A DNA stretch of 64,000 nucleotides from Altererythrobacter sp. (lineage in GTDB: Bacteria; Pseudomonadota; Alphaproteobacteria; Sphingomonadales; Sphingomonadaceae): assembly GCA_031178065.1 (NCBI GenBank), contig JAPSJS010000008.1, forward strand, positions 1-64,000, written 5' to 3'. The notes beneath the pieces are model-generated. The model saw only the letters and a program-made list of their open reading frames with translations, had not been told where the DNA came from and ran no database searches. Position 1 is the first letter of the stretch. Each line of letters begins with the position of its first letter. This document shows positions 3,000-49,014 of the stretch, piece after piece. The position numbers were made by a program, and so were the translations under genes.

Positions 3000-4820
3000 A
3001 TGCACGCCTACCGTACCCACAACTGTGCACAGCTAGCGAAGGCGAACGTCGGCGAAACGGTTCGCCTCTCGGGCTGGATCCACCGCAAGCGCGACCATGG
3101 CGGGGTGCTGTTCGTCGATCTGCGTGACCACTACGGCCTCACGCAGATCGTGGCGGACGAGGACAGCCCCGCGCTCAGCGTACTCGACGGGCTGAAGCTG
3201 GAATCGGTCGTCACCATCGATGGCGAGGTCAAGGCGCGCGCGGAGGGCACGGTGAACCCGAACCTTCCGACCGGCGAGATCGAGGTCTTCGCACGCAGCG
3301 TGACGGTGCAGAGCCGTGCCGAGGAGCTGCCTCTGCCGGTCGCCGGCGAGCAGGAGTACCCGGAGGACATCCGTCTCAAGTACCGCTTCGTCGACCTTCG
3401 CCGCGAGACCATGCACCGCAACATCATGTTGCGCAGCCAGGTCATCACCTCGATCCGCCGCCGCATGACGGCGCAAGGCTTCACCGAGTTTCAGACGCCG
3501 ATCCTCGGCGCCTCCAGCCCTGAGGGCGCGCGAGACTACCTCGTGCCCAGCCGCCTGCATCCGGGCCGCTTCTACGCGCTCCCGCAGGCGCCGCAGATGT
3601 TCAAGCAGCTGCTGATGGTCGCGGGCTTCGACCGCTATTTCCAGATCGCGCCCTGTTTCCGCGACGAGGATCTGCGCGCCGACCGCAGCCCCGAGTTCTA
3701 CCAGCTCGACTTCGAAATGAGCTTCGTCACGCAGGAAGACGTATTCCAGGCGATCGAGCCGGTGCTCGCCGGGGTGTTCGAAGAATTTGCGAACGGAAAG
3801 AGCGTGACGCCCGCGGGCGAATTCCCGCGCATCCCTTATGCCGACGCAGTACTGAAGTACGGCACGGATAAGCCGGACCTGCGCAACCCGCTGATCATCA
3901 GCGACGTGACGCACCACTTCGCAACCTCGGGTTTCGGCCTGTTCGAGAAGATCGTCGGTTCCGGCGGCCGTGTCCGCGTCGTCCCGGCGCCGAACACGCA
4001 CGAGAAGAGCCGCAAGTTCTTCGACGACATGAACGACTGGGCGCGGCGCGAAGGCTTTGCCGGTCTGGGCTACGTCACCCGCAAGGGCGGCGAGTTCGGC
4101 GGCCCCATAGCCAAGAACCACGGCACCGAGGGCATGGAGAAGCTCTACGCCGAGCTCGGTCTGGGCGAGAACGACGGCCTGTTCTTCGCCGCGGGCAAGG
4201 AGAAGGACGCGGCGAAGCTCGCCGGCGCTGCCCGTACCCGCGTCGCCGAGGAGCTCGGTCTGATCGAGCAGGGCTGCTTCAAGTTCTGCTGGATCGTCGA
4301 CTTCCCGATGTTCGAGTATGACGAGGAGCAAAAGAAGGTCGACTTCAGCCACAATCCGTTCTCGATGCCGCAGGGCGAGATGGAAGCGCTGGAGAACGAG
4401 GACCCCCTGACCATCAAGGCGTGGCAGTACGACATCGTCTGCAACGGCTACGAGTTGTCGTCGGGCGCGATCCGGAACCACCGGCCCGACATCATGTACA
4501 AGGCGTTCGAGATCGCCGGCTATTCGAAGGAAGACGTCGATGCGAACTTCTCGGGCATGATCGAGGCGTTCAAGCTCGGCGCGCCGCCGCACGGCGGCTC
4601 GGCCCCAGGGATCGACCGTATCGTCATGCTGCTGGCGGACGAACCGAACATCCGCGAGGTCATCGCCTTCCCGCTCAACCAGCGCGCGCAGGACCTGATG
4701 ATGGGTGCTCCATCGGTGGTGAGCCCCCGCCAGCTTCGCGACGTGCACATCCGTACCGTGGAGGCGCCGAAGCCGCAGCCGGGTGCGGAAACGCGCGTCG
4801 ATCAGGCCGGAGACGCTTGA
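3000..4820 (+). CDS. aspS: Aspartyl-tRNA synthetase, probably non-discriminating type
   Basis: 606-residue class IIb synthetase of the long bacterial type. It has an N-terminal OB-fold anticodon domain, a catalytic core with motif 2 ([14 protein letters not shown]) and a motif 3 region (GGSAPGIDR), and the bacterial insertion domain. The anticodon domain reads RKRDHGG with His33 and has Gly83 in EGTVNPN. From recalled literature these match the His/Gly pair that lets Pseudomonas-type AspRS charge both tRNA-Asp and tRNA-Asn, unlike E. coli AspRS (RDLG). That implies a GatCAB amidotransferase elsewhere. Start ATG at 3000; 75 bases separate it from acpP. Confidence 0.96.
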
Positions 4821-4895
4821 GCGGGCACTTGCCAGCGCCTTCGCCGTTCATTAGGGCGAAAGCAACATTTAACCCCAATACACAGAGGGCATAAT

Positions 4896-5132
4896 ATGAG
4901 CGATACCGCCGACCGCGTGCAGAAGATCGTTGTCGAGCATCTGGGCGTCGAAGCCGACAAGGTGACCCAGGATGCGAGCTTCATCGACGATCTCGGCGCC
5001 GACAGCCTCGACATCGTCGAACTGGTGATGGCTTTCGAGGAAGAATTCGGCGTCGAAATCCCTGACGATGCGGCCGAGAAGATCACCACCGTGGGCGACG
5101 CCACGAAGTACATCGAAGAACACAAGGGCTAG
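4896..5132 (+). CDS. acpP: Acyl carrier protein
   Basis: 78-residue acidic four-helix carrier for fatty acid synthesis. The phosphopantetheine attachment motif GADSLD is present with Ser37, within the canonical helix II sequence [15 protein letters not shown]. Length and charge match bacterial AcpP. It is followed by fabF 148 bases downstream, the standard acpP-fabF order, with a strong hairpin terminator between them, so acpP probably makes both a short abundant transcript and some readthrough into fabF. Confidence 0.98.
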
Positions 5133-5220
5133 GCTTTTCGCGCTTTTCCCGTTCGCTCGAGCTTGCATTAGCAAAAGCGACGAGGGAGAGGCCCGATCCC
5201 TGTTAGCGCAGGGATATGCA

Positions 5221-5257
5221 GGCTCAGCCCTAACGGGTTGGGCCTGTTGTTCTTTCT
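5221..5257 (+). terminator. Rho-independent terminator after acpP
   Basis: A 10-bp stem (5221-5230 with 5235-5244, two G-T pairs, loop TAAC) is followed by the T-rich tail TGTTGTTCTTTCT. It lies 90 bases past the acpP stop and just before fabF. It probably tunes the high acpP to lower fabF transcript ratio. Confidence 0.75.
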
Positions 5258-5280
5258 GGAAGACGTAATCGGAGAATTGC

Positions 5281-6540
5281 ATGCGCCGTGTGGTCGTAAC
5301 CGGTCTGGGTCTCGTCACCCCGCTGGGTGCCGATGTCGAGACGACGTGGAAGAACCTTATCGCCGGCAAGAGCGGGGCGGGGCAGATCACCCGTTTCGAC
5401 GCGAGCAACCAGAAGTGCACCATCGCCTGCGAAGTGAAGGCGAAGGATCACGAATGGGGTTTCGACCCCGACAAGCGCGTTGACCACAAGGTTCAGCGGC
5501 AGGTCGATCCGTTCATCATCTATGGCATCGATGCCGCCGGACAGGCGCTCGAGGACGCCGGGCTTGCCGAGATGGACGACGACCTCAAGCAGCGCACCGG
5601 CGTCTCGATCGGTTCGGGCATTGGCGGCCTGCCGGGGATCGAGAGCGAATCGATCGTCCTGCACGAGCGTGGCCCGAGCCGCGTGAGCCCGCACTTCGTT
5701 CACGGCCGATTGATCAATCTCATCTCGGGCCAGGTCTCGATCAAGTACGGCCTGATGGGTCCGAATCATGCAGTTGTGACCGCATGCTCGACCGGTGCGC
5801 ACTCGATCGGCGATGCCGCGCGGATGATCCGCGACGGCGATGCCGACGTCATGCTCGCGGGCGGCGCGGAAGGCACGATCAACCCGTTGGGCGTCGCCGG
5901 TTTCGCGCAGGCGCGCGCGCTCAACATGAGCATGAACGACCGTCCGACGGAAGCGAGCCGCCCCTACGACAAGGACCGCGATGGCTTCGTCATGGGCGAG
6001 GGTGCGGGCGTCGTCGTGCTCGAGGAATACGAGCATGCCAAGGCGCGCGGCGCTAAGATCTATGCCGAGGTCGTCGGGTACGGCCTCTCGGGCGATGCCT
6101 ACCACGTCACGGCGCCGCACCCGGAAGGCAAGGGCGCCGAACTCGCCATGCGCATGGCGATCCGCAAGTCCGGACTTGAGCCGGGCGACATCGACTACGT
6201 CAATGCGCACGGCACCTCGACGATGGCGGACACGATCGAGCTCGCCGCGGTCAAGCGCGTGCTCGGCAACGATCTCAGCGGCGCTTCGATGAGCAGCACC
6301 AAGTCCGCCATCGGGCACCTTCTGGGCGGCGCCGGAGCCGTGGAGAGCATCTTCTGCATCCTTGCGATGCGCGACCAGATCGTTCCGCCCACGCTCAACC
6401 TCGACAATCCGGACGAGGGAACCGAAGGCGTCGATCTCGTCCCGCATGAAGCGAAGAAGCGCGAGGTTCGCGCCGTGCTGAACAACAGCTTCGGCTTCGG
6501 CGGAACCAACGCCAGCCTGGTGATGAAGAAGGTCGACTGA
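5281..6540 (+). CDS. fabF: Beta-ketoacyl-ACP synthase II
   Basis: 419-residue condensing enzyme extending acyl-ACP with malonyl-ACP. The Cys-His-His triad is visible: Cys169 in TACSTGAH, His310 in NAHGTSTMAD and His346 in KSAIGHLLGGAG. The terminal NNSFGFGGTNAS loop is the conserved KAS glycine-rich segment. Length is typical (about 412-420). It follows acpP and overlaps functionally with mltG, which starts 2 bases after its stop, so fabF-mltG-RNA ligase form one transcript. Confidence 0.98.
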   Translation: MRRVVVTGLGLVTPLGADVETTWKNLIAGKSGAGQITRFDASNQKCTIACEVKAKDHEWGFDPDKRVDHKVQRQVDPFIIYGIDAAGQALEDAGLAEMDDDLKQRTGVSIGSGIGGLPGIESESIVLHERGPSRVSPHFVHGRLINLISGQVSIKYGLMGPNHAVVTACSTGAHSIGDAARMIRDGDADVMLAGGAEGTINPLGVAGFAQARALNMSMNDRPTEASRPYDKDRDGFVMGEGAGVVVLEEYEHAKARGAKIYAEVVGYGLSGDAYHVTAPHPEGKGAELAMRMAIRKSGLEPGDIDYVNAHGTSTMADTIELAAVKRVLGNDLSGASMSSTKSAIGHLLGGAGAVESIFCILAMRDQIVPPTLNLDNPDEGTEGVDLVPHEAKKREVRAVLNNSFGFGGTNASLVMKKVD

Positions 6541-6541
6541 C

Positions 6542-7513
6542 ATGCGGCGGCGCGGCTGCATGGCCGCCGGGGCGCTCGCCGCCCTGGCGCTCCTTTCGGC
6601 CGTGATCTTCGGCAGCCTGGCGTTCGGCTCCGCGCAAGTGGAGAAGGACACGGCCTTCATCGTCCCTTCGGGCGCGACGCTAACGGCCGCCGCACGCAAG
6701 CTGGAAGACGAAGGGCTGATCACCTCTGCCGACGGCTTCCTGCTACGGGCCAAGCTGCTTGGCAGTTCCGACCCGATCCAGGCCGGCGAGTTCCGTCTCC
6801 CGGCCGGGATAGGGCAGGGCGGCATTCTCGACACTTTCCAGCATGGCGAGGTGATCCGCCGCTTCGTCACCATTCCCGAGGGCATGCCGTCGACCCTCGT
6901 CTACGAGAAGCTGATGGCGGAACCGCTGCTGACCGGCGAGATCCCGGTGCCCGAGGAAGGTTCGGTCCTGCCCGATACCTATGCCTTCGAGCGCGGCGAG
7001 GCCCGCACGGCGGTTCTCGCGCGGATGCAGGCGGCGATGCGCAACTACCTCGCCGAGGCATGGCCCAAGCGTGGCAAGGACATCGCCGTCGACACGATCG
7101 AGGAGGCGGTGACGCTGGCCTCGATCGTCGAGAAGGAAACCGCGCTGCCGAAGGAGCGGCGGATGGTTGCCGGGCTCTACTCGAACCGGGTGAAAGAGGG
7201 CATGTTCCTCCAGGCCGATCCCACGATCATCTATCCGATCACCAAGGGCAAGCCGCTCGGCCGCCGCATCCGTCAGTCGGAGATCGCGGCGATCAACGAC
7301 TACAACACTTATTCGATGGCTGGTCTTCCGAAGGGACCGATTACCAACCCCGGGCGGGAGAGCATCGCCGCGGTGCTCAATCCCGCCAAAACCGATGCGC
7401 TCTATATGGTCGCAGACGGGACGGGCGGGCACGTGTTCAATTCGGACTATGCCGCGCACCAGGAAGCCGTCGACAAATGGTTCGCGATCCGCCGCGCGCG
7501 CGGCGAGATGTGA
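6542..7513 (+). CDS. mltG: Endolytic murein transglycosylase MltG
   Basis: 323-residue YceG-family lytic transglycosylase thought to terminate nascent glycan strands in the inner-membrane periplasm. One N-terminal membrane segment spans about residues 8-28. A LysM-like region follows, then the catalytic segment SIVEKETALP (194-202) with the essential Glu, and the FLQADPTIIY and YNTYSMAGLPKGPITNPG signatures. It starts one base after the fabF stop and its own stop overlaps the next gene, so translation is likely coupled. Confidence 0.96.
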   Translation: MRRRGCMAAGALAALALLSAVIFGSLAFGSAQVEKDTAFIVPSGATLTAAARKLEDEGLITSADGFLLRAKLLGSSDPIQAGEFRLPAGIGQGGILDTFQHGEVIRRFVTIPEGMPSTLVYEKLMAEPLLTGEIPVPEEGSVLPDTYAFERGEARTAVLARMQAAMRNYLAEAWPKRGKDIAVDTIEEAVTLASIVEKETALPKERRMVAGLYSNRVKEGMFLQADPTIIYPITKGKPLGRRIRQSEIAAINDYNTYSMAGLPKGPITNPGRESIAAVLNPAKTDALYMVADGTGGHVFNSDYAAHQEAVDKWFAIRRARGEM

Positions 7514-8040
7514 CCGGGGCGGCACCCGCGCCGCTGATCGTCACGGCGGAGCTGCCGCCGGACATTCACCGCTGGGCTACGCGACTGCGCGCGGCGCACT
7601 ATCCACCAGAGCGCAACTTTCTGGAGGCGCACGTCACGCTGTTCCATGCCCTGCCACCCGGCAGCGAGGACGAAGTGAAGGATCGTCTGGCAAGGCTCGC
7701 CGCGGAGCACGCGCCCATCGCAGCGCGGCTCGAAGGCGTCATGCCGCTCGGGACTGGCACGGCACTCCATCTGACGAGTCCTGAGATGCTCGCGCTGCGC
7801 AGCGATCTCGCCGCGCAATTCCATGGCCTTCTCACCTTGCAAGACGCACACGAACCGCGCCTCCACGTCACGATCCAGAACAAGGTATCCTCGCAAGCTG
7901 CGCGGGATCTTCAGCGCAGGCTGTCCGCCCAGATCGAACCACGCGCTTTCACCTTCCCGGGACTCGCGCTGCACCGCTATCGCGGCGGGCCATGGGAGTT
8001 CGTGAAGCGCTGGCCGTTCCGGGGCAAAAAGCGAGGTTGA
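7510..8040 (+). CDS. 2'-5' RNA ligase-like (LigT/2H phosphoesterase family) protein
   Basis: 176 residues from a GTG that overlaps the mltG stop (GTGA). The two HxT motifs that define the 2H phosphoesterase fold are present: HVTLFH (His41) and HVTIQN (His119). Family members open or form 2',5' phosphodiester or cyclic phosphate bonds in RNA; the physiological substrate in bacteria is generally not established. The size fits the family (about 170-190). I chose the GTG because the upstream frame is only a shadow of mltG and the four-base overlap is a normal operon junction. Confidence 0.85.
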   Translation: MTGAAPAPLIVTAELPPDIHRWATRLRAAHYPPERNFLEAHVTLFHALPPGSEDEVKDRLARLAAEHAPIAARLEGVMPLGTGTALHLTSPEMLALRSDLAAQFHGLLTLQDAHEPRLHVTIQNKVSSQAARDLQRRLSAQIEPRAFTFPGLALHRYRGGPWEFVKRWPFRGKKRG

Positions 8041-8129
8041 CCGGCTCGCAAGCCCGCCCTAAATGCGCCGCCTGCCCCCGCGCCGGCGGAGGCTCGCCGA
8101 ACCGCCATGCGATCGGCAAGTGCCCATGG

Positions 8130-8206
8130 GGCGGAGTAGCTCAGCTGGTTAGAGCAGCGGAATCATAATCCGCGTGTCGGGGGTTCAAGTCCCTCCTCCG
8201 CTACCA
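8130..8206 (+). tRNA. tRNA-Met (anticodon CAT), elongator type
   Basis: A 77-base cloverleaf. The acceptor stem GGCGGAG pairs with CTCCGCT (G-T closing pair), the D arm contains AGCTCAGCTGGTTAGAGC, the anticodon stem is GCGGA/TCCGC with loop ATCATAA (CAT at positions 34-36), and the T arm contains GGTTCAAGTCC. CCA is encoded. The sequence resembles alphaproteobacterial elongator Met tRNA rather than the initiator. A lysidine-modified Ile2 tRNA would share the anticodon. An integrase remnant lies 190 bases downstream, so its 3' end may have been an integration site. Confidence 0.93.
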
Positions 8207-8396
8207 TTCGCGAATCCCTTCCAAACCTCGCATTTTTGGCGGTTTTCCGCCATTTTTGAGGTGATGGAGCGCGCCAAAATCACACGTTTTGCGGAACCGC
8301 GGCATGGTCAGATTTGGCCATTTTTGCCCCGTTTTGACGCCACTTGTGTGAGAATTGGTGTGGTCGTTTTATCGCCTCGATTGGGCCGAGGCATCC

Positions 8397-8650
8397 ATGG
8401 AAAAGGACGTAAATCTAACACCTTCGCGTATCGACCAGCTCGAGAGGGGGGCGATATTCGACCCCGAAATCCCCGGACTTTGTGTGATCGTTTTGGGGCC
8501 GGGCAAGAAGGTCTGGCGCTTCAAACGGCGCATCGCGCGCACAAAAACCATTATAGAACTGAATCTCCTATTCCGTTGCCGCCGCGCGCGAGTGGGTGCG
8601 CCTGCTAGCAGATGCGTTGCCAGTTGCCCTGCTGTCTCTTGAAGGGTTTT
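8397..8650 (+). pseudogene. Tyrosine integrase remnant (N-terminal DUF4102-like part)
   Basis: From the ATG at 8397 the reading LTPSRIDQLERG followed by PEIPGLCVIVLGPGKKVWRF resembles the DUF4102 arm-binding domain at the start of P4-type integrases, whose members read like 'D..LPGFGVRV.PSGRKTW.FRYR'. After about 8571 the homologous reading continues in another frame (AAAREWVRLLADAL, typical of the following helix), so there is a frameshift. No catalytic recombinase domain follows. It sits just past the tRNA-Met, the classic location for such an integrase, and is best read as the stub of a lost integrative element. Confidence 0.6.
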
Positions 8651-8760
8651 GCCGCGGTCGCGCTGCGTATGGGTCAGGTTGGGTCAAGCAACTCCCAGAA
8701 AAGCTGCAGCGGGATCGGTACCTTCCGCCATGTGCGGGGGAACCCAGCCAGTGCACAGCA

Positions 8761-8795
8761 CTAAGAATAAGGGGCGGCGAATTACCGCCGCCCCT
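8761..8795 (-). terminator. Rho-independent terminator for the small secreted-protein gene
   Basis: Perfect 10-bp inverted repeat (8770-8779 with 8786-8795, six-base loop). On the minus strand it is followed by the T-rich stretch TTATTCTTAG. It lies 25 bases past the stop of the gene at 8820-9095. Confidence 0.8.
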
Positions 8796-8819
8796 GGGAT
8801 TCCAAGTGGAGTACGCCGG

Positions 8820-9095
8820 TTATTGCGGCTCAGGCGCTGTGTCGCCCTCCTGGGGGATGGGCTCACCGGTAACGTCGTCAATTCCGTCCCCGTCCTGATC
8901 GACCGGTTCTGGCGCAGGCTCCGGCGCCGGATTGGTGGGCGCCGGTTCAGGAGCAGGTGCTGGTGGGGCGGGTTCTTCTGGTGTTGGTGGCGGCGGGGTC
9001 TCGGTGTCCTGGGCCTGGATCGCCGTTCCGCCGGCAGCGAGGGCCAAAGCCAGGGCGGCTTTGGCGAGCACTGAATTCGACATCATCATCTTCAT
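8820..9095 (-). CDS. Small secreted proline-rich protein with one DxDxDGxxD motif
   Basis: 91 residues from the ATG at 9095, which has AGAGGAC 8 bases upstream. Residues 1-28 form a signal peptide ending AIQAQ. The mature part is a low-complexity Pro/Ala/Glu segment (about residues 32-64) followed by DQDGDGIDD, which looks like a single calcium-binding loop of the thrombospondin type 3/dockerin kind. Function is unknown; an envelope or surface protein is plausible. It has its own strong terminator, so it is probably expressed alone. No family recognised. Confidence 0.7.
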   Translation of the reverse strand: MKMMMSNSVLAKAALALALAAGGTAIQAQDTETPPPPTPEEPAPPAPAPEPAPTNPAPEPAPEPVDQDGDGIDDVTGEPIPQEGDTAPEPQ

Positions 9096-9330
9096 GGATC
9101 GTCCTCTTACATCCCCTGGTAAGGGGCAGACGATTCGCTCTGGAGAAGGCTCCCAAGCCTGCGGCGGGGCGAAAGGGGCTTCCGACGAGCGGCCGCTTCT
9201 AGTGCTTTTGGGCTTGCGGCTCCGTATGGATGTGTGACCCTCCGACGGGTCACGCTCTTGGCGGACGCACTGATCATTCAAGCTGACCCTCGATGCCGAA
9301 GCATAACGGCCCTCGAGAGCTGCTGTGCTC

Positions 9331-40987: not shown

Positions 40988-41659
40988 GTGACACTTCCGG
41001 TTCTCTACAGCTTCCGCCGGTGCCCTTACGCGATGCGCGCGCGGTTCGCGCTGCTCGTAAGCCGCACGACATGCGAACTGCGCGAGGTCAAGCTGTCGGA
41101 CAAACCCCCAGCTTTGCGGGAGGCTTCGGCGAAAGCGACCGTCCCGGTGATCGTCGAGCCCGGCGGCCGCGTGATCGAGGAGAGCCTCGACATCATGCGC
41201 TGGGCCCTCGGCCGCTCCGACCCCGATGGCTGGTTGCAGCGGGATGATCCCGCTCTCATCGCGGCCAACGACGGACCGTTCAAGCACGATCTCGACCGCT
41301 ACAAATATCCGGACCGGCACGGGAGCGATGCTGCGGCGCATCGCCGCGCGGGGCTTGCCTTCCTGGCCGAGCTGAACGCGCGGCTGGAAGGCCAGGGCCA
41401 ACTTTGCGGCACCGCGCCGGGGCTTGCAGACATGGCGATCATGCCCTTCGTCCGGCAGTTTGCGGCCACTGATCAGGCGTGGTTCGCCGCACAACCCCTA
41501 CCGCACTTGCAAACCTGGCTTCAGGGTCACCTCAATTCGGAGCTCTTCGCCGCCGTCATGGCTCGTCTGGATCCCTGGAAGGCCGGGGACGCGCCCGTAC
41601 CGTTTCCGATCGCGACCGACTGCTCTCCCGCGAACCATTCCTCGCAAACTCGACGCTAG
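40988..41659 (+). CDS. Glutathione S-transferase
   Basis: 223 residues from GTG 40988. A thioredoxin-like N-terminal domain begins LPVLYSFRRCPYAMRARFAL, with a CPYAMR motif of the omega/beta-like GSTs where the Cys is the catalytic residue, then VPVIVEPGG and EESLDIM. The helical C-terminal domain is complete (LADMAIMPFVRQF). Probably co-transcribed with trhO. Confidence 0.85.
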   Translation: MTLPVLYSFRRCPYAMRARFALLVSRTTCELREVKLSDKPPALREASAKATVPVIVEPGGRVIEESLDIMRWALGRSDPDGWLQRDDPALIAANDGPFKHDLDRYKYPDRHGSDAAAHRRAGLAFLAELNARLEGQGQLCGTAPGLADMAIMPFVRQFAATDQAWFAAQPLPHLQTWLQGHLNSELFAAVMARLDPWKAGDAPVPFPIATDCSPANHSSQTRR

Positions 41660-41759
41660 GCTCAGAAGCGGACGCTGAGCACACCGCCGATCGTTCGGAA
41701 CACTTCCGGCATGACGATCTCGGCGTGACCACGCAACAAACACACTTGCTTCGCATGCG

Positions 41760-41787
41760 CTACAAATGTAGCACGCTACAAATGTAG
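41760..41787. promoter_or_regulatory. Two BlaI/MecI-type operators upstream of blaI
   Basis: Two identical 12-base palindromes CTACAAATGTAG at 41760-41771 and 41776-41787, four bases apart, with the canonical BlaI half-site pair TACA-N2-TGTA. They end 17 bases before the BlaI start codon at 41805, a position fit for repression of the whole operon by tandem dimers. Confidence 0.9.
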
Positions 41788-41804
41788 TGCATGAGGTGAT
41801 TCGC

Positions 41805-42182
41805 ATGTTGTCCAATCTCCCGCCGCGAGAGCGCCAGATCGTCGACATTCTCTATGAGCGTGGGGCATCGACGGTGGGGGAGATCGGCGATGCGCTGGAG
41901 GATGAAATCTCCGGCTCCGCGATCCGCGCCATGCTCAAGCGGCTTGAGGGCAAGGGGTTTGTCGAACGCTCGCAGAGCGTCCGCGGGTTCGTCTACGCAC
42001 CCAGCCTGCCCGAAAAGGCGGCGCGCAAGTCCGCGCTGGGTCAGGTCGTGCGGGTGTTCTTTAACGGATCGCCGACCAGCGCTGCGGCAGCTCTGCTCGG
42101 CATGCAGGACAACTTGAGCATCGAAGAGCTCGACGAGCTGGAGCAGTTGATCGCCCATGCGCGCAAGGGGAGGAATTCGTGA
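41805..42182 (+). CDS. blaI: BlaI/MecI/CopY-family repressor
   Basis: About 125 residues from the ATG at 41805 (GAGGTG 6 bases upstream). The winged helix (SNLPPRERQIVDILYERG, TVGEIGDALEDEISGSAIR, MLKRLEGKGFVER) is followed by a C-terminal dimerisation tail with the family's SAAAALLGMQ and LSIEELDELEQLI. In the classical system it is cleaved by the M56 sensor next door. The stop overlaps the next gene (TGATG). Confidence 0.93.
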   Translation: MLSNLPPRERQIVDILYERGASTVGEIGDALEDEISGSAIRAMLKRLEGKGFVERSQSVRGFVYAPSLPEKAARKSALGQVVRVFFNGSPTSAAAALLGMQDNLSIEELDELEQLIAHARKGRNS

Positions 42183-43933
42183 TGCTGACCGCTTCGCTTC
42201 TAGCGAGCCTCGCTCTGAAATCGCTTGCGCTCGCCGCGCTCACGCTCGGCATTCTGAGGCTCGCGCGCAGCCGCACGCCGGCTGAGCGGTCGCTGATCGC
42301 GCATCTCGGCCTGCTCGCGATCCTGCTGCTGCCGATCGGCTCGGTCCTGCTGCCGCAATGGGCGCCCTTGCCGCAGGAGTTCCTGGCATCGAATGCGGCC
42401 GCATCGGTGGCGCCGGAAGTGCCCGCGACCGCGCATCCGGCCGATATTCCGATAACCGCCGCGGAAGCCGCGGCGGCGGCGCCTTTTTTCAGCCCGCCGA
42501 CCCTCGCGGAGCTCGCGGTGTGGATATACGCGCTGCCACTCGCGCTGATGTTCGTGATGATGGCGGTCGCGGTGTTCAGGCTGTTCGCCATGCGCCGGCG
42601 GGCCGAGGTGCTGGTCGACGGGGCCTGGCTGTCGGCACTCGCCGAAGCGCAGCGCCGGATGGGATTCAAGCACGGCACCGCACTGCTGGTCAGCGAGGAA
42701 CTGCGCTCGCCGATAAGCTGGGGCGTGCTGCGCCCGACCATTTTGCTCGATCCCCGCGCGGTCTCGGCCGTTCGGGAAGCCGAGGCGATCATCGCGCACG
42801 AACTGGCGCACGTCGCCCGCCTCGACTGGGCCAAGCTCCTCATTGCGCGGCTTGCCTGGGCGCTGTTCTGGTTCAACCCGCTGGTCTGGCTGCTTGCCCG
42901 CGAGAGCCATCACTTGCGCGAGGAAGCGGCGGACGATGCCGTCCTGCTGACCGACATCGCCGGTTCGGACTATGCCACACTGCTGGTCAACGCCGCCCGC
43001 CACGACAACCGCGCCGTGCTGATCGCCGCGCATGGTGTCGCACCGGCCAAGAATTCTCTCAAGCGCCGCGTGATCCGCGTGCTCGACGCGAACGCCTCAC
43101 GGGGGCCTGTCGGCACGGGCTGGGGGTTCCTCGGTCTTGCCTCGGTGCTGGCCATCGCCACGCCCCTGGCGGCATTCACCACCGTCGCGGCCGAGCGTGC
43201 GGAGTTGGTCGAAACGACCGCCGGCCATACGACGCGGGCAGCGACGGCTGTAGAACATGATCCCGTCAAGCTCACCAGCGACGCGCAGGCGACGGTCAGC
43301 GCGGACGATCTGGTGAGCATGCGCGCGATGGACGTAACGCCTGCCGATGTCGCCGAGATGCGTGAGAGTGGCGAAGGGTTCGACGTGGACGACGTCATTG
43401 CAGCCAAGGCGACCGGCGTCACCCCCGACTACATGGCGGAGATGCGGAGCGTATTCGGCACTGCGGATACGGACGAACTCGTCGGCGCCCGCGCGGTCGG
43501 CGTCGATCCGGCCTATGCCCGCGCCATGCGCGCGGCCGATGCCAGTGCCGACCTCGACGCAATCATCGGCGCCCGGGCGGTCGGCCTCACCGCCGCCTAT
43601 GTCCGCGAGCTTCGCGGCTACTTCCCCCGCGCCACGCTGGAGGAAATGATCAGCATGCGTGCGGTCGGCGTCACCGGGAAATTCGTCGAGGATATGCGCG
43701 CCTCGGGCCTGAACGTCGCAAACCCCGACGACGTAGTAAGCGTCCGCGCAGTGACGAGCCATCGCGGGCCGCCGCCGGGTCCGCCGCGAGGGCCGCAGGC
43801 CATCTCTGTCTCGCGGACGGGAGCTACCGCGATCGCCGGGCCCGGCGGCGTCGTGAGCACCCGCCGCACGGAAGGCGGAACTTCGACGTCGGTCGTCCTC
43901 AGCAATACGCGGTCCGATCCAACCCACGACTAA
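42182..43933 (+). CDS. BlaR1/MecR1-like M56 protease with a repeat domain in place of the beta-lactam sensor
   Basis: 583 residues. The N-terminal membrane part (about four helices) carries the zinc protease motif HELAHVARLDW in a cytoplasmic loop, with ESHHLREEAADDAVL as the third ligand region. After the last helix (GWGFLGLASVLAIATPLAA) the periplasmic region is not a penicillin-binding domain. It holds five to six units of about 28 residues with the pattern DDxVxxRAxGVTPxYxxEMR between residues 373 and 525, then a Pro/Gly-rich tail. So it senses something other than a beta-lactam and should relieve BlaI repression. Start ATG overlaps the blaI stop. Confidence 0.88.
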   Translation: MLTASLLASLALKSLALAALTLGILRLARSRTPAERSLIAHLGLLAILLLPIGSVLLPQWAPLPQEFLASNAAASVAPEVPATAHPADIPITAAEAAAAAPFFSPPTLAELAVWIYALPLALMFVMMAVAVFRLFAMRRRAEVLVDGAWLSALAEAQRRMGFKHGTALLVSEELRSPISWGVLRPTILLDPRAVSAVREAEAIIAHELAHVARLDWAKLLIARLAWALFWFNPLVWLLARESHHLREEAADDAVLLTDIAGSDYATLLVNAARHDNRAVLIAAHGVAPAKNSLKRRVIRVLDANASRGPVGTGWGFLGLASVLAIATPLAAFTTVAAERAELVETTAGHTTRAATAVEHDPVKLTSDAQATVSADDLVSMRAMDVTPADVAEMRESGEGFDVDDVIAAKATGVTPDYMAEMRSVFGTADTDELVGARAVGVDPAYARAMRAADASADLDAIIGARAVGLTAAYVRELRGYFPRATLEEMISMRAVGVTGKFVEDMRASGLNVANPDDVVSVRAVTSHRGPPPGPPRGPQAISVSRTGATAIAGPGGVVSTRRTEGGTSTSVVLSNTRSDPTHD

Positions 43934-43983
43934 CCGCCGCCCGGCGTCAAAAGCCTAATTAAATTTCGACAACGCCGGCCTTC

Positions 43984-44003
43984 GGCGAGCGCCTTCGCTC
44001 GCC
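43984..44003 (+). other. Hairpin between the M56 gene and the repeat-protein gene
   Basis: Perfect 8-bp stem GGCGAGCG/CGCTCGCC with four-base loop CCTT, embedded in a further GC-rich inverted repeat. No T-run. It may stabilise or attenuate the operon transcript. Confidence 0.45.
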
Positions 44004-44030
44004 TGCCGCCGGCGCAGAAAGGAGCCTGCC

Positions 44031-44768
44031 ATGAAGATGTTCTCCAAGCCGGCGGTTCTCGCAGCAGCGCTCATGCTCGGTTCTACCACTACGGATCCGG
44101 GATGGTCGCAAAACGGTGCGGCCGAGCTCACCGACATCGCGTGGACCGTCTCGGACACCGGCGGAAGTGCACCGACCCTGCGCATTCATCACGAGAGCAG
44201 CAGCAGCACGTTTCCGCTCGACGACGGGGAGCCCGATCTCGCATCCGTCAGGGCTGCACTGGGGTCACCGAACCAAGGTGCGGTCACATTCACGATCGAT
44301 CGCGAGCCGGGCCTGCTGACCTGCCGCGGCACTCTCGATCGGCGCTACGATGGAAGCGGCGACTGCGTCTTTGCCCCCGATGCGGCGTTCGAGGCCGGCC
44401 TGAACGCCCGCCGCTTGGCGCCGAAGCGCCAGGAAGACCTGCTGACGCTGGCTCTGGTCGACGCGGATCTCGCGCTGATCGACGGCCTGAGCCGGCAAGG
44501 CCTCGCTCCGCGTTCGCTCAACGACGTGATCGCCGCTGCGGCGCTCGATGTGACACCGGGCTACGTCGCGAGCCTCCAATCGGCGGGCCTCGATCTCGAG
44601 TCGATCGACGATGCCGTTGCTTGCCGCGCGCTGGATATCGACGAAGCCTATGTCCGCGGGATCGTCGCTGCCGGCTACGAGCCTCGCGCGCGCGACCTGG
44701 TCGCGATGAAAGCGACCGGGGTCACGCCCGAACACGCGCAAAATATCAACGCTGCGGCGCGGAACTGA
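44031..44768 (+). CDS. Secreted protein sharing the 28-residue repeat of the M56 sensor
   Basis: 245 residues, N-terminal signal (FSKPAVLAAALMLGSTTTDP). The first part is unidentified. The C-terminal part has three repeats like those of the neighbouring sensor: SLNDVIAAAALDVTPGYVAS, then DDAVACRALDIDEAYVRGIV, then ARDLVAMKATGVTPEHAQNI. Sharing the repeat suggests direct interaction with the sensor's periplasmic domain, or binding of the same ligand. No catalytic motif seen. A secreted ligand-binding adaptor is the simplest idea; unproven. Confidence 0.75.
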   Translation: MKMFSKPAVLAAALMLGSTTTDPGWSQNGAAELTDIAWTVSDTGGSAPTLRIHHESSSSTFPLDDGEPDLASVRAALGSPNQGAVTFTIDREPGLLTCRGTLDRRYDGSGDCVFAPDAAFEAGLNARRLAPKRQEDLLTLALVDADLALIDGLSRQGLAPRSLNDVIAAAALDVTPGYVASLQSAGLDLESIDDAVACRALDIDEAYVRGIVAAGYEPRARDLVAMKATGVTPEHAQNINAAARN

Positions 44769-44782
44769 GCGGGAGAGGGCAG

Positions 44783-46870
44783 ATGAAAGCATTCACCGGG
44801 GCCGCAGCGATCGCGCTGCTCGGCGCATGGCCGGCCCAGGCGCAGGATCTGCCCGAAAGCGGCGATGCCGCTGCGCCCGACCCGCAGCCCGCCGCCTCGA
44901 CCCTCCGGTCCGGGCAGGTCTACACCCCGGCCGACTTCGTCCGCTATGCCCCCAAGAATGCATACGACATGCTGAACCAGGTTCCCGGGTTCACGATCCG
45001 CGACAGCGAGCAATTGCGCGGTCTCGGCCAGGCGACGGGCAACGTCCTGTTCAACGGCCAGCGGCCGTCGAGCAAGTCCGATACGCTCGAAACGCTTCTC
45101 ACCCGCATTCCCGCCGACAATGTCGAGCGCATCGAAATCCTCGATGGCGCCACGCTCGACATTCCGGGTCTTTCGGGTCAGGTCGCCAACATCGTGTTCA
45201 AGGCCGACAGCTTCTCCGGCCAGTTCTCGTGGAAGCCGGAATTTCGCGCACACTATACCGACCCGCTGTTCACGCGCGGCGACGTGTCGGTCAGCGGGCG
45301 CAGCGGTGCGATCGAGTACGAAGTCGGGCTCAACAACGACGAGTCCGCGCGCAGCGGCGCAGGGGGCGGCACGCTCATCTACGATGCCGCGGGCGCGGTC
45401 ACCGAGCGGCGCTTCGAGATCTGGAATACGCATTACGACACGCCGAAGCTTTCGGGGAAGGTGACCTGGGATGGCCCGGGCACCAGCGTCGGGCACATCA
45501 ACGCTCACTACCAGCGCATCTACGACCGCTACGACGAGATCGGCGAACGCGCCGGTCCCGGCTTGCCCGACCGTTCCCGCATTTTCCGCGAGCGCAACGA
45601 TAGCTGGAACTACGAACTGGGTGGGGACTACGAGTTCGCCCTGGGCCCGGGACGGCTCAAGGCGATAGGCATCAGGCGCTTCAGCCACGAACCCTATCTG
45701 CAGGAAGCGATCACCAGGTTCGCCGACGGTTCGGCCGATATCGGCGACCGCTTCACGCAGACCGGCGATTTGGGCGAGACCATCGCCCGCGGTGAATACA
45801 GCTGGAAGATGCTCGGCGGGGATTGGCAGCTTTCGGGCGAAGCCGCGTTCAATACGCTGGAGAACGTCGCCGGTCTGTTTACCCTCGACCCCACGGGCGA
45901 GTTCGTCGAGATCCCGTTCCCCGAAGGCAGCGGCGGCGTGAGCGAGGACCGCTACGAGGGGCTGCTCAGCTTCGGCCGCAAGCTCACCCCTACGCTGTCG
46001 TTCCAACTCGTTGGAGGCGCCGAGCATTCGACTATCGCGCAGACGGGGTCGAACGGCCTGACGCGCAGTTTCTTCCGACCCAAGGGTTCGCTCTCGCTGG
46101 CCTGGACGCCGAGCGACGACTTCGACGTAGCGCTCAAGATCCGGCGGCGCGTGCTACAGCTCTCGTTCTACGACTTCCTCGCGCGGGCCTTCCTCAACGA
46201 CGGGAACGCGAACTCCGGGAACAACGATCTGCGCCCGCAGCAGGACTGGAGCTACGAGGCTGAGATCAACAAGAAGTTCGGCCCCTGGGGATCGACACAG
46301 CTCCGTCTGATCTACCGCGACGTCGAAGACTATGTCGACATCATCCCGGTCGGCGATGGCGAGTCTGTCGGCAACATCGCGAAGTCCCGGGCGGCGGCGG
46401 TCGTCTGGACGAGCACGATCAATCTCGACCCCGCCGGCCTCAACGGGGTGAAGCTCGACACCAGCGTTCTCTACCAGGGGTCGCGCCTGCGTGATCCGTT
46501 CACCGGAGAATCGCGCCAGTGGAGCGGCTTCACGGATACGGAGGCAAGCATCGCCTTGCGGCACGACATCCCGGACAGCGACTGGGCCTGGGGCGGTGCG
46601 GCCGACTACTCGCACAATCAGCCGAACTATCGCAGCAATCAGGTAGACCGTATCTGGGAGGGTCCTAGCTTCGCCTCCGTGTTCATCGAGAACAAGGACG
46701 TCTTCGGCCTCACCGTGCGCGCGCAAGTCGGCAATATCCTCAATGCACGGTCCCGGCGCCACAGGATCGTATATGGCGGCCTCCGGGGCGAGACGCCGAT
46801 CACCTCGATCGAGGAGCGGGACCGGCTGATCGGTCCGATCTTCTCGTTTTCCGTGCGGGGAAAGTTCTGA
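44783..46870 (+). CDS. TonB-dependent outer-membrane receptor of the BlaI/M56 operon
   Basis: 695 residues from the ATG at 44783. Signal peptide ends about AQAQD. Plug domain around residues 45-140 (NAYDMLNQVPGFTIRD; NVERIEILDGATLDIPGLSG) followed by a beta-barrel, ending with an aromatic Phe (SFSVRGKF). No clear TonB box. The stop overlaps the start of the hydrolase gene (TGATG), so both are translated together. It probably takes up the compound that the operon detects and the hydrolase processes. Confidence 0.9.
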   Translation: MKAFTGAAAIALLGAWPAQAQDLPESGDAAAPDPQPAASTLRSGQVYTPADFVRYAPKNAYDMLNQVPGFTIRDSEQLRGLGQATGNVLFNGQRPSSKSDTLETLLTRIPADNVERIEILDGATLDIPGLSGQVANIVFKADSFSGQFSWKPEFRAHYTDPLFTRGDVSVSGRSGAIEYEVGLNNDESARSGAGGGTLIYDAAGAVTERRFEIWNTHYDTPKLSGKVTWDGPGTSVGHINAHYQRIYDRYDEIGERAGPGLPDRSRIFRERNDSWNYELGGDYEFALGPGRLKAIGIRRFSHEPYLQEAITRFADGSADIGDRFTQTGDLGETIARGEYSWKMLGGDWQLSGEAAFNTLENVAGLFTLDPTGEFVEIPFPEGSGGVSEDRYEGLLSFGRKLTPTLSFQLVGGAEHSTIAQTGSNGLTRSFFRPKGSLSLAWTPSDDFDVALKIRRRVLQLSFYDFLARAFLNDGNANSGNNDLRPQQDWSYEAEINKKFGPWGSTQLRLIYRDVEDYVDIIPVGDGESVGNIAKSRAAAVVWTSTINLDPAGLNGVKLDTSVLYQGSRLRDPFTGESRQWSGFTDTEASIALRHDIPDSDWAWGGAADYSHNQPNYRSNQVDRIWEGPSFASVFIENKDVFGLTVRAQVGNILNARSRRHRIVYGGLRGETPITSIEERDRLIGPIFSFSVRGKF

Positions 46871-48075
46871 TGACCCAAAAGGCGTCGGTCAGGGAGAGCA
46901 AGATGAGCGAACTCACAACTTCGCCGGTCGGCATTGCAACTGCACGAGGGCGGGGGCCGGCCGAAGAGGGTCCAACGCGCCAGCCCCATAGGAGCATGCT
47001 CCGCTGGATTGCAGCCGCCTTCTGGGCCTTGACGTTGATGCTCGCATTCGCGGCGAATACACCGGCATCTGCCCGTAGCGTGACTTCGCTGCCCTGGAGC
47101 GCGGCACCTTCGACCGTAACCGTGAGCGAAAGCCGGACTTTCCGCAGCGGCGATGCCACGCTCGCCGGGACGCTCTATCTGCCAAAGGGAGGGCGGGCCC
47201 TGGCGGCCGTGGTCGTCACGCACAGCGCCTCGAAGTCGCTGGGCGATGCGGTGCTCTACCAGCACCTGAAGGAGATGCTGCCGCCGCTCGGTATCGCGGT
47301 GCTGACCTACGACCGGCGCGGCAGCGGACGATCGGGCGGAAGCCTGAAAGACAGCGATTACACCATGCTCGCCGACGATGCGATTGCAGCAGTACGGATG
47401 CTCAAGGCCGATCCGCGGATAGACTCGGAGCGGATCGGCATCTGGGGATTGAGCCAGGGCGGCTGGCTGTCGTTGCTTGCAGCCGCGCGCAGCTCCGATG
47501 TGCGGTTCGTCGTGTCGATCTCGGCGCCCGTTGTGACCCCCGATGTGCAGATGATGTTCCGCTCAGAGAACAGCATGCGCATCAGCGGGCATTCGGATGC
47601 CGAGATCGACCAGATGCGCGCGATGCGCCAGGCGGTGGACGATTACATGCGCGGGACGGGCGATCGCGCGACTGCGCAGGCGCTGGTCGACGCGGCCAAG
47701 GACAAGCCGTGGTTCGATCTGCTCTACATGGGCGAAACCGTCGGGGATCGGGCGACATCGCGCTGGCGCAAGGAGATCGAGTACGATCCGCTGCCGACGC
47801 TCGATCAGGTCGATGTGCCGGCGCTGATCCTGTTCGGCGCCAACGACCCGGTCGTTCCCGTGGCGACCTCGGTCGCTCGGATCAACGCCCGGCGGAGCCC
47901 GAACCTCACAGTGCGCGTGATAGCGGGCGCGGACCACCACATGGCCACATCGATGACTCCCAAGGCGCAGATGAACCCCGCGCAATCGCAGTGGGCCCGG
48001 CCCGAAGCGGCGGAGTATTTCTCGACACTGGCAAGCTGGTTTGCCGGCCAGGAGATCGCGACCGCGCCGAAGTGA
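46870..48075 (+). CDS. Alpha/beta hydrolase, exported or membrane-anchored
   Basis: 401 residues. A hydrophobic signal/anchor spans about residues 45-66 (RWIAAAFWALTLMLAFAANT) after an unusually long Arg/Pro-rich N-terminus. Hydrolase motifs: nucleophile elbow GLSQGG, an acid residue in LFGANDPVVP, and the His in AGADHHMA. The early HSASKSLGD and DRRGSGRSGG segments suit an esterase or peptidase of the dienelactone-hydrolase/S9-like group. It is the last gene of the BlaI operon, so it should act on the inducing molecule. Substrate unknown. Confidence 0.85.
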   Translation: MTQKASVRESKMSELTTSPVGIATARGRGPAEEGPTRQPHRSMLRWIAAAFWALTLMLAFAANTPASARSVTSLPWSAAPSTVTVSESRTFRSGDATLAGTLYLPKGGRALAAVVVTHSASKSLGDAVLYQHLKEMLPPLGIAVLTYDRRGSGRSGGSLKDSDYTMLADDAIAAVRMLKADPRIDSERIGIWGLSQGGWLSLLAAARSSDVRFVVSISAPVVTPDVQMMFRSENSMRISGHSDAEIDQMRAMRQAVDDYMRGTGDRATAQALVDAAKDKPWFDLLYMGETVGDRATSRWRKEIEYDPLPTLDQVDVPALILFGANDPVVPVATSVARINARRSPNLTVRVIAGADHHMATSMTPKAQMNPAQSQWARPEAAEYFSTLASWFAGQEIATAPK

Positions 48076-48168
48076 TCAGGGTGCGGCGACGACCGCGTCC
48101 TGCCGCTTTTCCGGCCGAACGTATATCGAGGAGAAGCAAGGCGATATCTCCTTCAGCTGCGCCTCGAT

Positions 48169-49014
48169 CTACTCGATCAGCCGTTCGCCTTCTCCCATCG
48201 AGACGCGATCGTCGAAGTCCGCGCTGACGGCCACGAATATCGCGTCGGGTGCGGTATGGATCGTCCGGACGTGATTGACGCTGGTGATGTTCGGATGGCT
48301 CTCAATGGCTGCGCGTATCTCGCGGACCACGGTCGGATCGGCGCTCTCGCCGATGATCAGACCCTTCGCCTCGCGCGCGAGGAGGAGGGCCACGCCGGTC
48401 AGTACCAGGCCGATCAGGATCGAGGCCAGGCCGTCGATCCGCGGGTCGCCGAAGTGATGGCTGGCCCAGACGCCAGCAGCCGCCACGGCGAGGCCGACCA
48501 GCGCTGCACTATCTTCGAACAGCACGACGAAATGCCCGGGATCCTTGGAGTTCACGACAGACTGCCACCAACCCTCGGGGTGGGGCCGGGCGGCAAATTC
48601 GCGCACTGCGGATCCTCCCTCCAGCAGGAAGGCGACGCCCAGCACCACGTAGTTGATGGTCGGATCGCGGAGCGGCTCAGGGTCCATGTAATGCATGGTC
48701 CCCTCGTAGATCGACACGCCAGCGCCGACCGCAAAGATCAGCATGGCGACGACAAAGGCCCAGAAGTAGAGCTCGCGCCCATAGCCGAACGGATGCATCC
48801 GGTCCGGCGCTCGCCGCGCGCGACCTTGGCCATAGAGCAGGAGAACCTGGTTGCCGCTATCGACGAGTGAGTGAACCCCCTCCGTCAGCATCGACGACGA
48901 ACCGCTGATCGCAGCGGCGATGAACTTGGCAACGGCGATCCCGAGATTGGCCGCGAGCGCGCCGTAAAGAACGATGTTGTCCTTGAAGTGGGCTGCTCGC
49001 GGTCGCCGGGTCAC
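48169..49014 (-). CDS. Cation diffusion facilitator transporter, cut by an in-frame amber stop
   Basis: 281 residues from GTG 49014 to a TAG at 48169-48171. Six membrane helices and the CDF metal sites (SMLTEGVHSLVDSGN; EDSAALVGLAVAAAGV) are present, then a cytoplasmic domain (TSVNHVRTIHTAPD). Family members usually go on about 30 residues further. The same frame past the TAG reads IEAQLKEISPCFSSIYVRPE and ends in TGA at 48076-48078, just as homologues do. The amber looks like a single GAG or CAG to TAG change. Loss of the last helix and strand of the metal-binding domain may reduce, not abolish, function. Likely exports Zn2+ or a similar cation. Confidence 0.85.
   Translation of the reverse strand: MTRRPRAAHFKDNIVLYGALAANLGIAVAKFIAAAISGSSSMLTEGVHSLVDSGNQVLLLYGQGRARRAPDRMHPFGYGRELYFWAFVVAMLIFAVGAGVSIYEGTMHYMDPEPLRDPTINYVVLGVAFLLEGGSAVREFAARPHPEGWWQSVVNSKDPGHFVVLFEDSAALVGLAVAAAGVWASHHFGDPRIDGLASILIGLVLTGVALLLAREAKGLIIGESADPTVVREIRAAIESHPNITSVNHVRTIHTAPDAIFVAVSADFDDRVSMGEGERLIE

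Follow-up and report, generated by a model that had tools for sequence, protein, structure and literature searches.

The 64,000-nucleotide stretch analyzed here (the window), from contig JAPSJS010000008.1 of the sphingomonad Altererythrobacter sp., belongs to a genome of 3.17 Mb in 108 contigs (G000). It carries a five-gene operon for a BlaI/MecI-type repressor, an M56 (BlaR1-type) membrane metalloprotease (P0002), an apparently exported repeat protein (P0003; the signal peptide was judged by eye), a TonB-dependent receptor, and an alpha/beta hydrolase (Table 1). The most informative feature of this locus, we think, is a predicted helical solenoid that is common to the sensor protein and the secreted protein.

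Genes and operators of the locus

The sequence TACAAATGTA occurs twice, in exact copies, at positions 41761-41770 and 41777-41786. As the original prediction, made from the letters of the window alone, had it, these are two perfect TACA-N2-TGTA sites, and they are the only ones in the window (0.02 expected; two sites in none of 100 shuffles). TACA-N2-TGTA is the type of site bound by BlaI, and on the strength of this motif both copies are predicted to be operators of the kind found at the promoters of BlaI/MecI genes themselves. The longest open reading frame (ORF) of the BlaI gene opens at GTG 41787, and its start was moved to ATG 41805, as in relatives; this is probably the true start, which places the operators upstream of the gene and not against its start codon. 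The genome contains a third perfect site, CTACAAATGTAG, at positions 5957-5968 of locus L051 (G000:C85). This site was left out of the regulon because it lies inside an ORF (one of weak coding bias); no promoter is obvious there, and the reversed pattern likewise yields one site.

The families named in the original prediction were recovered by Pfam for the repressor, the protease, the receptor plug, and the hydrolase; no family was assigned to the repeat protein. The repressor belongs to the Penicillinase_R winged-helix family (PF03965, 75.8 bits versus a cut-off of 22.6). In the receptor, the plug domain scores 35.1 bits (cut-off, 23.9) and the barrel family 19.2 bits, under its cut-off of 27, so that the barrel half of the assignment as a TonB receptor, taken here as valid, is weak. 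The plug match begins at residue 39, a short distance past the signal peptide, and no N-terminal signalling (STN) domain of the kind present in FecA-type transducers was detected by Pfam at an E value of 0.1. A hydrophobic segment at the N terminus of the hydrolase marks it as exported or anchored, and a GLSQG motif lies at residue 193 of the long ORF. That ORF runs from 46870, and its start was moved to ATG 46903, probably the true one, 32 nucleotides (nt) past the receptor. With the starts re-assigned, the several overlapping starts proposed earlier are reduced to one firm case, BlaI/M56. None of the five genes encodes a beta-lactamase according to Pfam.

Matches in a promoter and terminator scan were no commoner than in shuffled sequences. 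A hairpin in the gap between the M56 and repeat genes (z score of just -1.96) might set differing expression of the protease and the secreted repeat protein.

Table 1. Features of the BlaI-M56-receptor operon in the window
Feature	Position	Strand	Basis
Operator 1	41759..41772	none	GCTACAAATGTAGC including flanks; exact core; tandem sites also precede BlaI genes of relatives
Operator 2	41775..41788	none	GCTACAAATGTAGT including flanks; 16 nt from operator 1
BlaI/MecI-type repressor	41805..42182	+	PF03965 Penicillinase_R, E 4.6e-21; start by comparison with relatives
M56 (BlaR1-type) membrane metalloprotease, P0002	42182..43933	+	PF05569, E 5.2e-32; motifs; model; Foldseek
G+C-rich hairpin within the 97 nt separating the M56 and repeat genes	43974..44013	+	whole gap z -1.96, weak
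Exported repeat protein, P0003	44031..44768	+	model, period, BLASTP to M56; no Pfam match
TonB-dependent receptor with plug domain	44783..46870	+	PF07715, E 2.1e-08; family survey
Alpha/beta hydrolase	46903..48075	+	Pfam, E 3.3e-16; GLSQG motif; start re-assigned

The sensor ectodomain and its secreted counterpart

P0002 has four hydrophobic segments, the M56 domain (PF05569, 111.6 bits versus a cut-off of 31), and the motifs HELAH at residue 206 and EEAAD at residue 247 (E247-D251), which correspond to the HExxH and ExxxD zinc motifs named for BlaR1 in PMC9834060. A phmmer comparison with solved structures was significant for BlaR1 only, over residues 160-306, and Foldseek with the P0002 model likewise placed BlaR1 first (8ext/8exp, E 8.4e-05). 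Past the last membrane segment, the model consists of helix pairs over residues 374-526, and self-comparison revealed a 28-residue period in residues 372-526 that was matched by none of 1000 shuffles; residues 1-300 have no period (978 of 1000 shuffles reach it). The model as a whole is poor, with a mean predicted local distance difference test (pLDDT) score of 62.8, and blocks within it range from 48-60 for residues 371-410 to 80-92 for residues 411-520. From the period and the model, the ectodomain appears to be a 28-residue helix-turn-helix solenoid replacing the penicillin-binding domain, much as the original prediction of a periplasmic repeat had it; by analogy with BlaR1, residues 374-526 are assumed to lie in the periplasm.

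The C-terminal penicillin-binding domain with its SxxK motif, typical of BlaR1 and MecR1, was not found in P0002, and the claim that this M56 protein has none withstood a search for a hidden fold. No penicillin-binding or transpeptidase family matched in Pfam; the region after residue 347 contains no SxxK and no S/YxN, just RTG at residue 545; and the model of the ectodomain is helical. NCBIfam models for BlaR1/MecR1 matched weakly and in the M56 part only (blaR1_generic, 70.1 bits versus a cut-off of 400, residues 107-301).

The model of P0003 (mean pLDDT, 83.9; residues 1-29, below 50) comprises an N-terminal beta domain at residues 33-116, followed by four helix-turn-helix repeats at a 28-29-residue spacing. 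The protein has a period of 29, which none of 1000 shuffles reach, and its solenoid aligns to the P0002 ectodomain (BLASTP E value of 6e-10 in a single pairwise comparison). By sequence, P0003 is thus predicted to carry the same, homologous solenoid. Pfam has no family that exceeds its cut-off in P0003 or in the repeat regions of the L045 and L046 proteins; Foldseek with the whole P0003 model, in which the solenoid was not searched alone, returned nothing at an E value of 0.001 or better; and a plasmid collection contained no match to P0003. The beta domain comes closest to PAS/Cache-type ligand-binding folds (9b9x, Z score 6.0, root mean square deviation 3.5, 81 aligned residues), an assignment that was not accepted, as Z 6.0 at best is under the trusted level of the tool.

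Related loci and the receptor family

A profile of the repeat (A1) matched 20 of the 298 family genomes at an E value of 1e-5 or better, and 3 of 398 genomes drawn from the phylum, the latter being the source genome and two others of the same family. Among the 20 matching genomes, 15 repeat-type M56 loci were found, the window included (the one in G218 is interrupted by a contig end inside M56); in the remaining five genomes, only secreted repeat genes were seen, with no M56 nearby. A secreted repeat gene is adjacent in 11 of the 15 loci, the receptor is present in 10, and both are present in 9. Wherever the BlaI start was readable (14 of 15 loci), a site with at most one mismatch precedes it; 12 of these loci have a perfect site, and 13 have two sites. 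The idea of a BlaI/BlaR1-type regulon that has no beta-lactam sensor and is coupled to a TonB receptor is supported by the relatives. The same list of neighbours bears out the receptor and not the hydrolase, which occurs in 2 of the 15 loci, both from one genus (the window and, in the same place, the congener G003). The hydrolase was accordingly rejected as part of the conserved module and is regarded as a late, genus-level addition to the operon.

A scan of GTDB contigs beyond the sampled genomes returned five loci, two of them from genomes already counted. One is from a Bryobacterales bin (an acidobacterium) and has genes for BlaI, an M56 protein with the repeat, and a secreted repeat protein in the same order, with neither a TACA-N2-TGTA-type operator nor a receptor of the window's family. 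Locus L101 of Sphingosinicella sp. CPCC 101087 (positions 4700-9266) encodes BlaI, an M56 protein with the repeat, a secreted repeat protein, and, in the same run of genes, a second M56 protein with a different, charged ectodomain. L104, from Thermoanaerobaculia, has a long secreted repeat gene and no M56 gene near it. The solitary secreted repeat genes of L082, L090-L093, L095, and L098 (two each in G110 and G267) encode a similar N-terminal domain.

A different domain is shared in the same manner at locus L047 (G017:C7), where BlaI and an M56 protein with a C-terminal DUF2807 domain (E 3.2e-16) are accompanied by a secreted DUF2807 protein (E 9.1e-17). A receptor gene of the same family as in the window is divergently transcribed there, and a perfect operator lies between the two transcription units. 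By phmmer, the ectodomains encoded by 70 M56 ORFs were compared with their neighbours; for many of these ORFs the flanks covered just about 1.5 kb (L105 duplicates L099, from the same genome; L097 was left out). A match between the ectodomain and a neighbour in the same locus was obtained for 11 repeat loci and for L047, where the match (E 6e-33) had no counterpart in any other locus. M56 proteins of other kinds gave two weak own-locus matches, L161 (1e-04) and L178 (5e-04); the L096 pair was missed by phmmer and recovered by the profile.

The receptor family, found in 142 of the 298 family genomes (E value of 1e-50 or better), is far commoner than the repeat. M56 proteins of any kind occur in 212 of the 298. 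Outside the repeat operons, 83 receptor genes were collected: 23 belong to loci with flanks of at least about 1.5 kb, and the other 60 to shorter stretches (about 1.2 kb). The latter were picked from the list of the family survey, and some may be linked to canonical BlaI genes. In the 19 receptor loci L136-L154, no BlaI, M56, or repeat gene is found within four predicted genes on each side. Several receptors (L146-L150, L152, and L153) have clpX/clpP and trigger factor genes close by, and some of these receptors adjoin a secreted amidase-like gene, as judged by eye.

A TACA-N2-TGTA site with at most one mismatch occurs within 250 nt upstream of 30 of the 83 receptors (8 perfect), compared with none of 83 coding controls; 200 composition-only shuffles of the receptor upstream regions gave a mean of 3.7 and a maximum of 9. 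The A+T fraction is 0.41 in these upstream regions versus 0.34 in the coding controls. After removal of similar upstream regions, the site is retained in 24 of 66 receptors. A first palindrome test, which used 60 receptor genes, a length of 370 nt, and a spacing of 2, placed G+C-rich half-sites ahead of TACA, which was found with at most one mismatch in 15 of 60 upstream regions and in none of 60 coding ones. In a second test, restricted afterwards to half-sites with three A/T (384 half-site/spacing patterns), TACA with spacing 2 came out on top (30 of 83), followed by ACAA with spacing 0 (26 of 83; coding, 2); ACAA and ACAT at spacing 0 and TTAC at spacing 4 can be read as other registers of the same palindrome. 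Among all 1536 patterns, TACA-N2-TGTA has the largest excess of upstream over coding occurrences.

At the receptor sites, A[CT]...[GA]T is preferred in the flanks, which played no part in choosing the sites. The same flanks are found upstream of canonical BlaI-M56 pairs, in 30 of 32 entries (two of which are the same locus) from a set of 30 M56 loci, the best-scoring of a longer list, plus that of the source genome. Canonical sphingomonad BlaI sites follow approximately A[CT]TAC[AG]NN[TC]GTA[AG]T, with flanks unlike those in the window. The source genome has such a pair at L003 (G000:C79, 7261-9353), preceded by the tandem sites TTTACAGTCGTAGT and TCTACAAACGTAGA; it consists of the same two families behind tandem operators and differs from the window operon in its ectodomain, in its flanks (A[CT]..[AG]T versus GC..GC), in the distance between sites (about 19-23 nt), and in having no matching secreted neighbour by phmmer. 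The shared flanks and the upstream excess, both of them motif evidence, suggest that the receptor is probably a target of canonical BlaI in many relatives and of its own BlaI in the window operon. Receptors with a site number 0 of 6 in genomes without M56 and 15 of 54 in genomes with it, a difference in the expected direction, with six being too few for a comparison.

Possible mechanism and alternatives

The operon resembles staphylococcal BlaR1-BlaI and MecR1-MecI in its BlaI-type repressor with TACA-N2-TGTA-type sites, and in an M56 zinc protease with HExxH and ExxxD motifs, four hydrophobic segments, and a sensor part past the last of them. It differs from these systems in that the sensor part is a helical solenoid, with no penicillin-binding sensor found, and in that a TonB receptor and an exported partner take the place of a beta-lactamase or PBP2a as the output. 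In the FecA-FecR-FecI system, an outer membrane TonB transducer is controlled by a transmembrane envelope sensor. The window operon would similarly place an outer membrane receptor under a transmembrane envelope sensor; unlike in the FecA type, no signalling domain was found on the receptor, and a protease and a repressor stand in place of the anti-sigma and sigma factors.

The gene content, the predicted operators, the catalytic motifs, and the shared solenoid are established at the level of sequence. A tentative interpretation, to which we give somewhat less than even weight, is that the operon is a BlaR1-like proteolytic switch for the TonB receptor, with the secreted look-alike serving as a co-sensor or feedback inhibitor. 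At rest, BlaI would limit expression of the entire operon to a low level, and exported P0003 would pack on the sensor solenoid, like to like, so that the protease stays inactive. A signal, from the envelope or from a ligand, would then bind, titrate, or destroy the exported protein, freeing the sensor to cleave itself and BlaI; BlaR1 cleaves BlaI directly, and itself, according to PMC9834060. The receptor would be made, and fresh exported protein would reset the switch. The window operon would unite the receptor, the repressor, and a swapped sensor; elsewhere, canonical BlaI would probably act on the receptor in trans. A functional precedent, with no homology claimed, is YjbI of Caulobacter, described in PMC12864828 as a secreted, pathway-induced repeat protein that silences the envelope sensors (UzcSR/ChvGI) controlling TonB receptor expression and is replenished by feedback; it differs in being a pentapeptide beta-helix that works with two-component systems.

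A broader and more doubtful proposal treats M56 sensors as a modular class. A secreted partner with the same kind of domain would read out the periplasmic domain, and the two would be swapped as a pair (solenoid or DUF2807), while one TonB receptor family under BlaI-type operators would remain the output. There could hence be a family-wide BlaI-receptor regulon in sphingomonads, in cis here and in trans elsewhere, for outer membrane surveillance unrelated to beta-lactams.

Several observations weigh against the switch and its generalization. The adjacent secreted repeat gene is absent from 4 of the 15 repeat-type M56 loci, and seven stretches from five family genomes carry a secreted repeat gene with no BlaI or M56 gene nearby; with unpaired loci on both sides, the partnership is not obligatory. 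The occurrence of DUF2807 in both sensor and partner is from one locus, an observation and not a rule. No match to a sigma-70-type promoter was found in positions 41640-48300. As to the receptors, 53 of 83 have no TACA-N2-TGTA site upstream, and by raw upstream count this pattern ranks 25th of 1536, behind patterns that are mostly G+C-rich and frequent in coding sequence, too.

The sensor ectodomain and the secreted gene could also be plain duplicates of one repeat. Under this explanation, which we consider unlikely, the two proteins are siblings from a duplication or fission with no joint function, and the sensor reads its own ligand. Common ancestry alone accounts for their similarity, and the unpaired members on both sides fit; however, the adjacency recurs in a second phylum, and the L047 pair carries another domain together (one locus in each case).

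The original prediction proposed a complete detect-import-hydrolyse circuit, in which a specific compound is detected by the sensor, taken up through the receptor, and degraded by a periplasmic hydrolase. The export-type N terminus of the hydrolase, its position 32 nt behind the receptor, and the retention of this place in G003 speak for such a circuit. However, the hydrolase is missing from 13 of the 15 loci, eight of which retain the receptor (seven with BlaI and a repeat-type M56 gene and one, cut at a contig end, with a secreted repeat gene). With the hydrolase in two loci of one genus, the circuit is not a conserved one, and we regard it as improbable. It is similarly improbable that the secreted protein is a signal carrier or activator, which would bind a ligand through its beta domain and, as a complex, turn the protease on: the PAS/Cache-like resemblance of that domain would suit this role, but the structural match (9b9x, Z 6.0) is below the trusted level, and the protein sits under the very operator that it would have to induce. 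Beta-lactam sensing through a hidden penicillin-binding domain or a partner is very improbable, given that no transpeptidase family match or SxxK motif was found in the sensor, no such fold in its ectodomain model, and no beta-lactamase among the five genes, even though BlaI and M56 are members of that family and a BlaR1 homologue of Mycobacterium tuberculosis likewise has no equivalent sensor domain according to PMC9834060.

A survey of the open-access literature by titles and abstract openings (with subscription papers mostly outside its scope) returned no report of this repeat in M56 sensors, of sensor and partner sharing DUF2807, or of sphingomonad TonB receptors controlled by BlaI. For the M. 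tuberculosis M56 sensor devoid of a penicillin-binding domain, the signal is called unclear in PMC9834060. The sensor described here offers both a defined output and a candidate partner in the periplasm, which makes the signal of such M56 sensors testable. Sphingomonads are known for the uptake and breakdown of unusual compounds, and from the receptor result one would expect TonB receptors throughout this family to be controlled by BlaI-type repressors.

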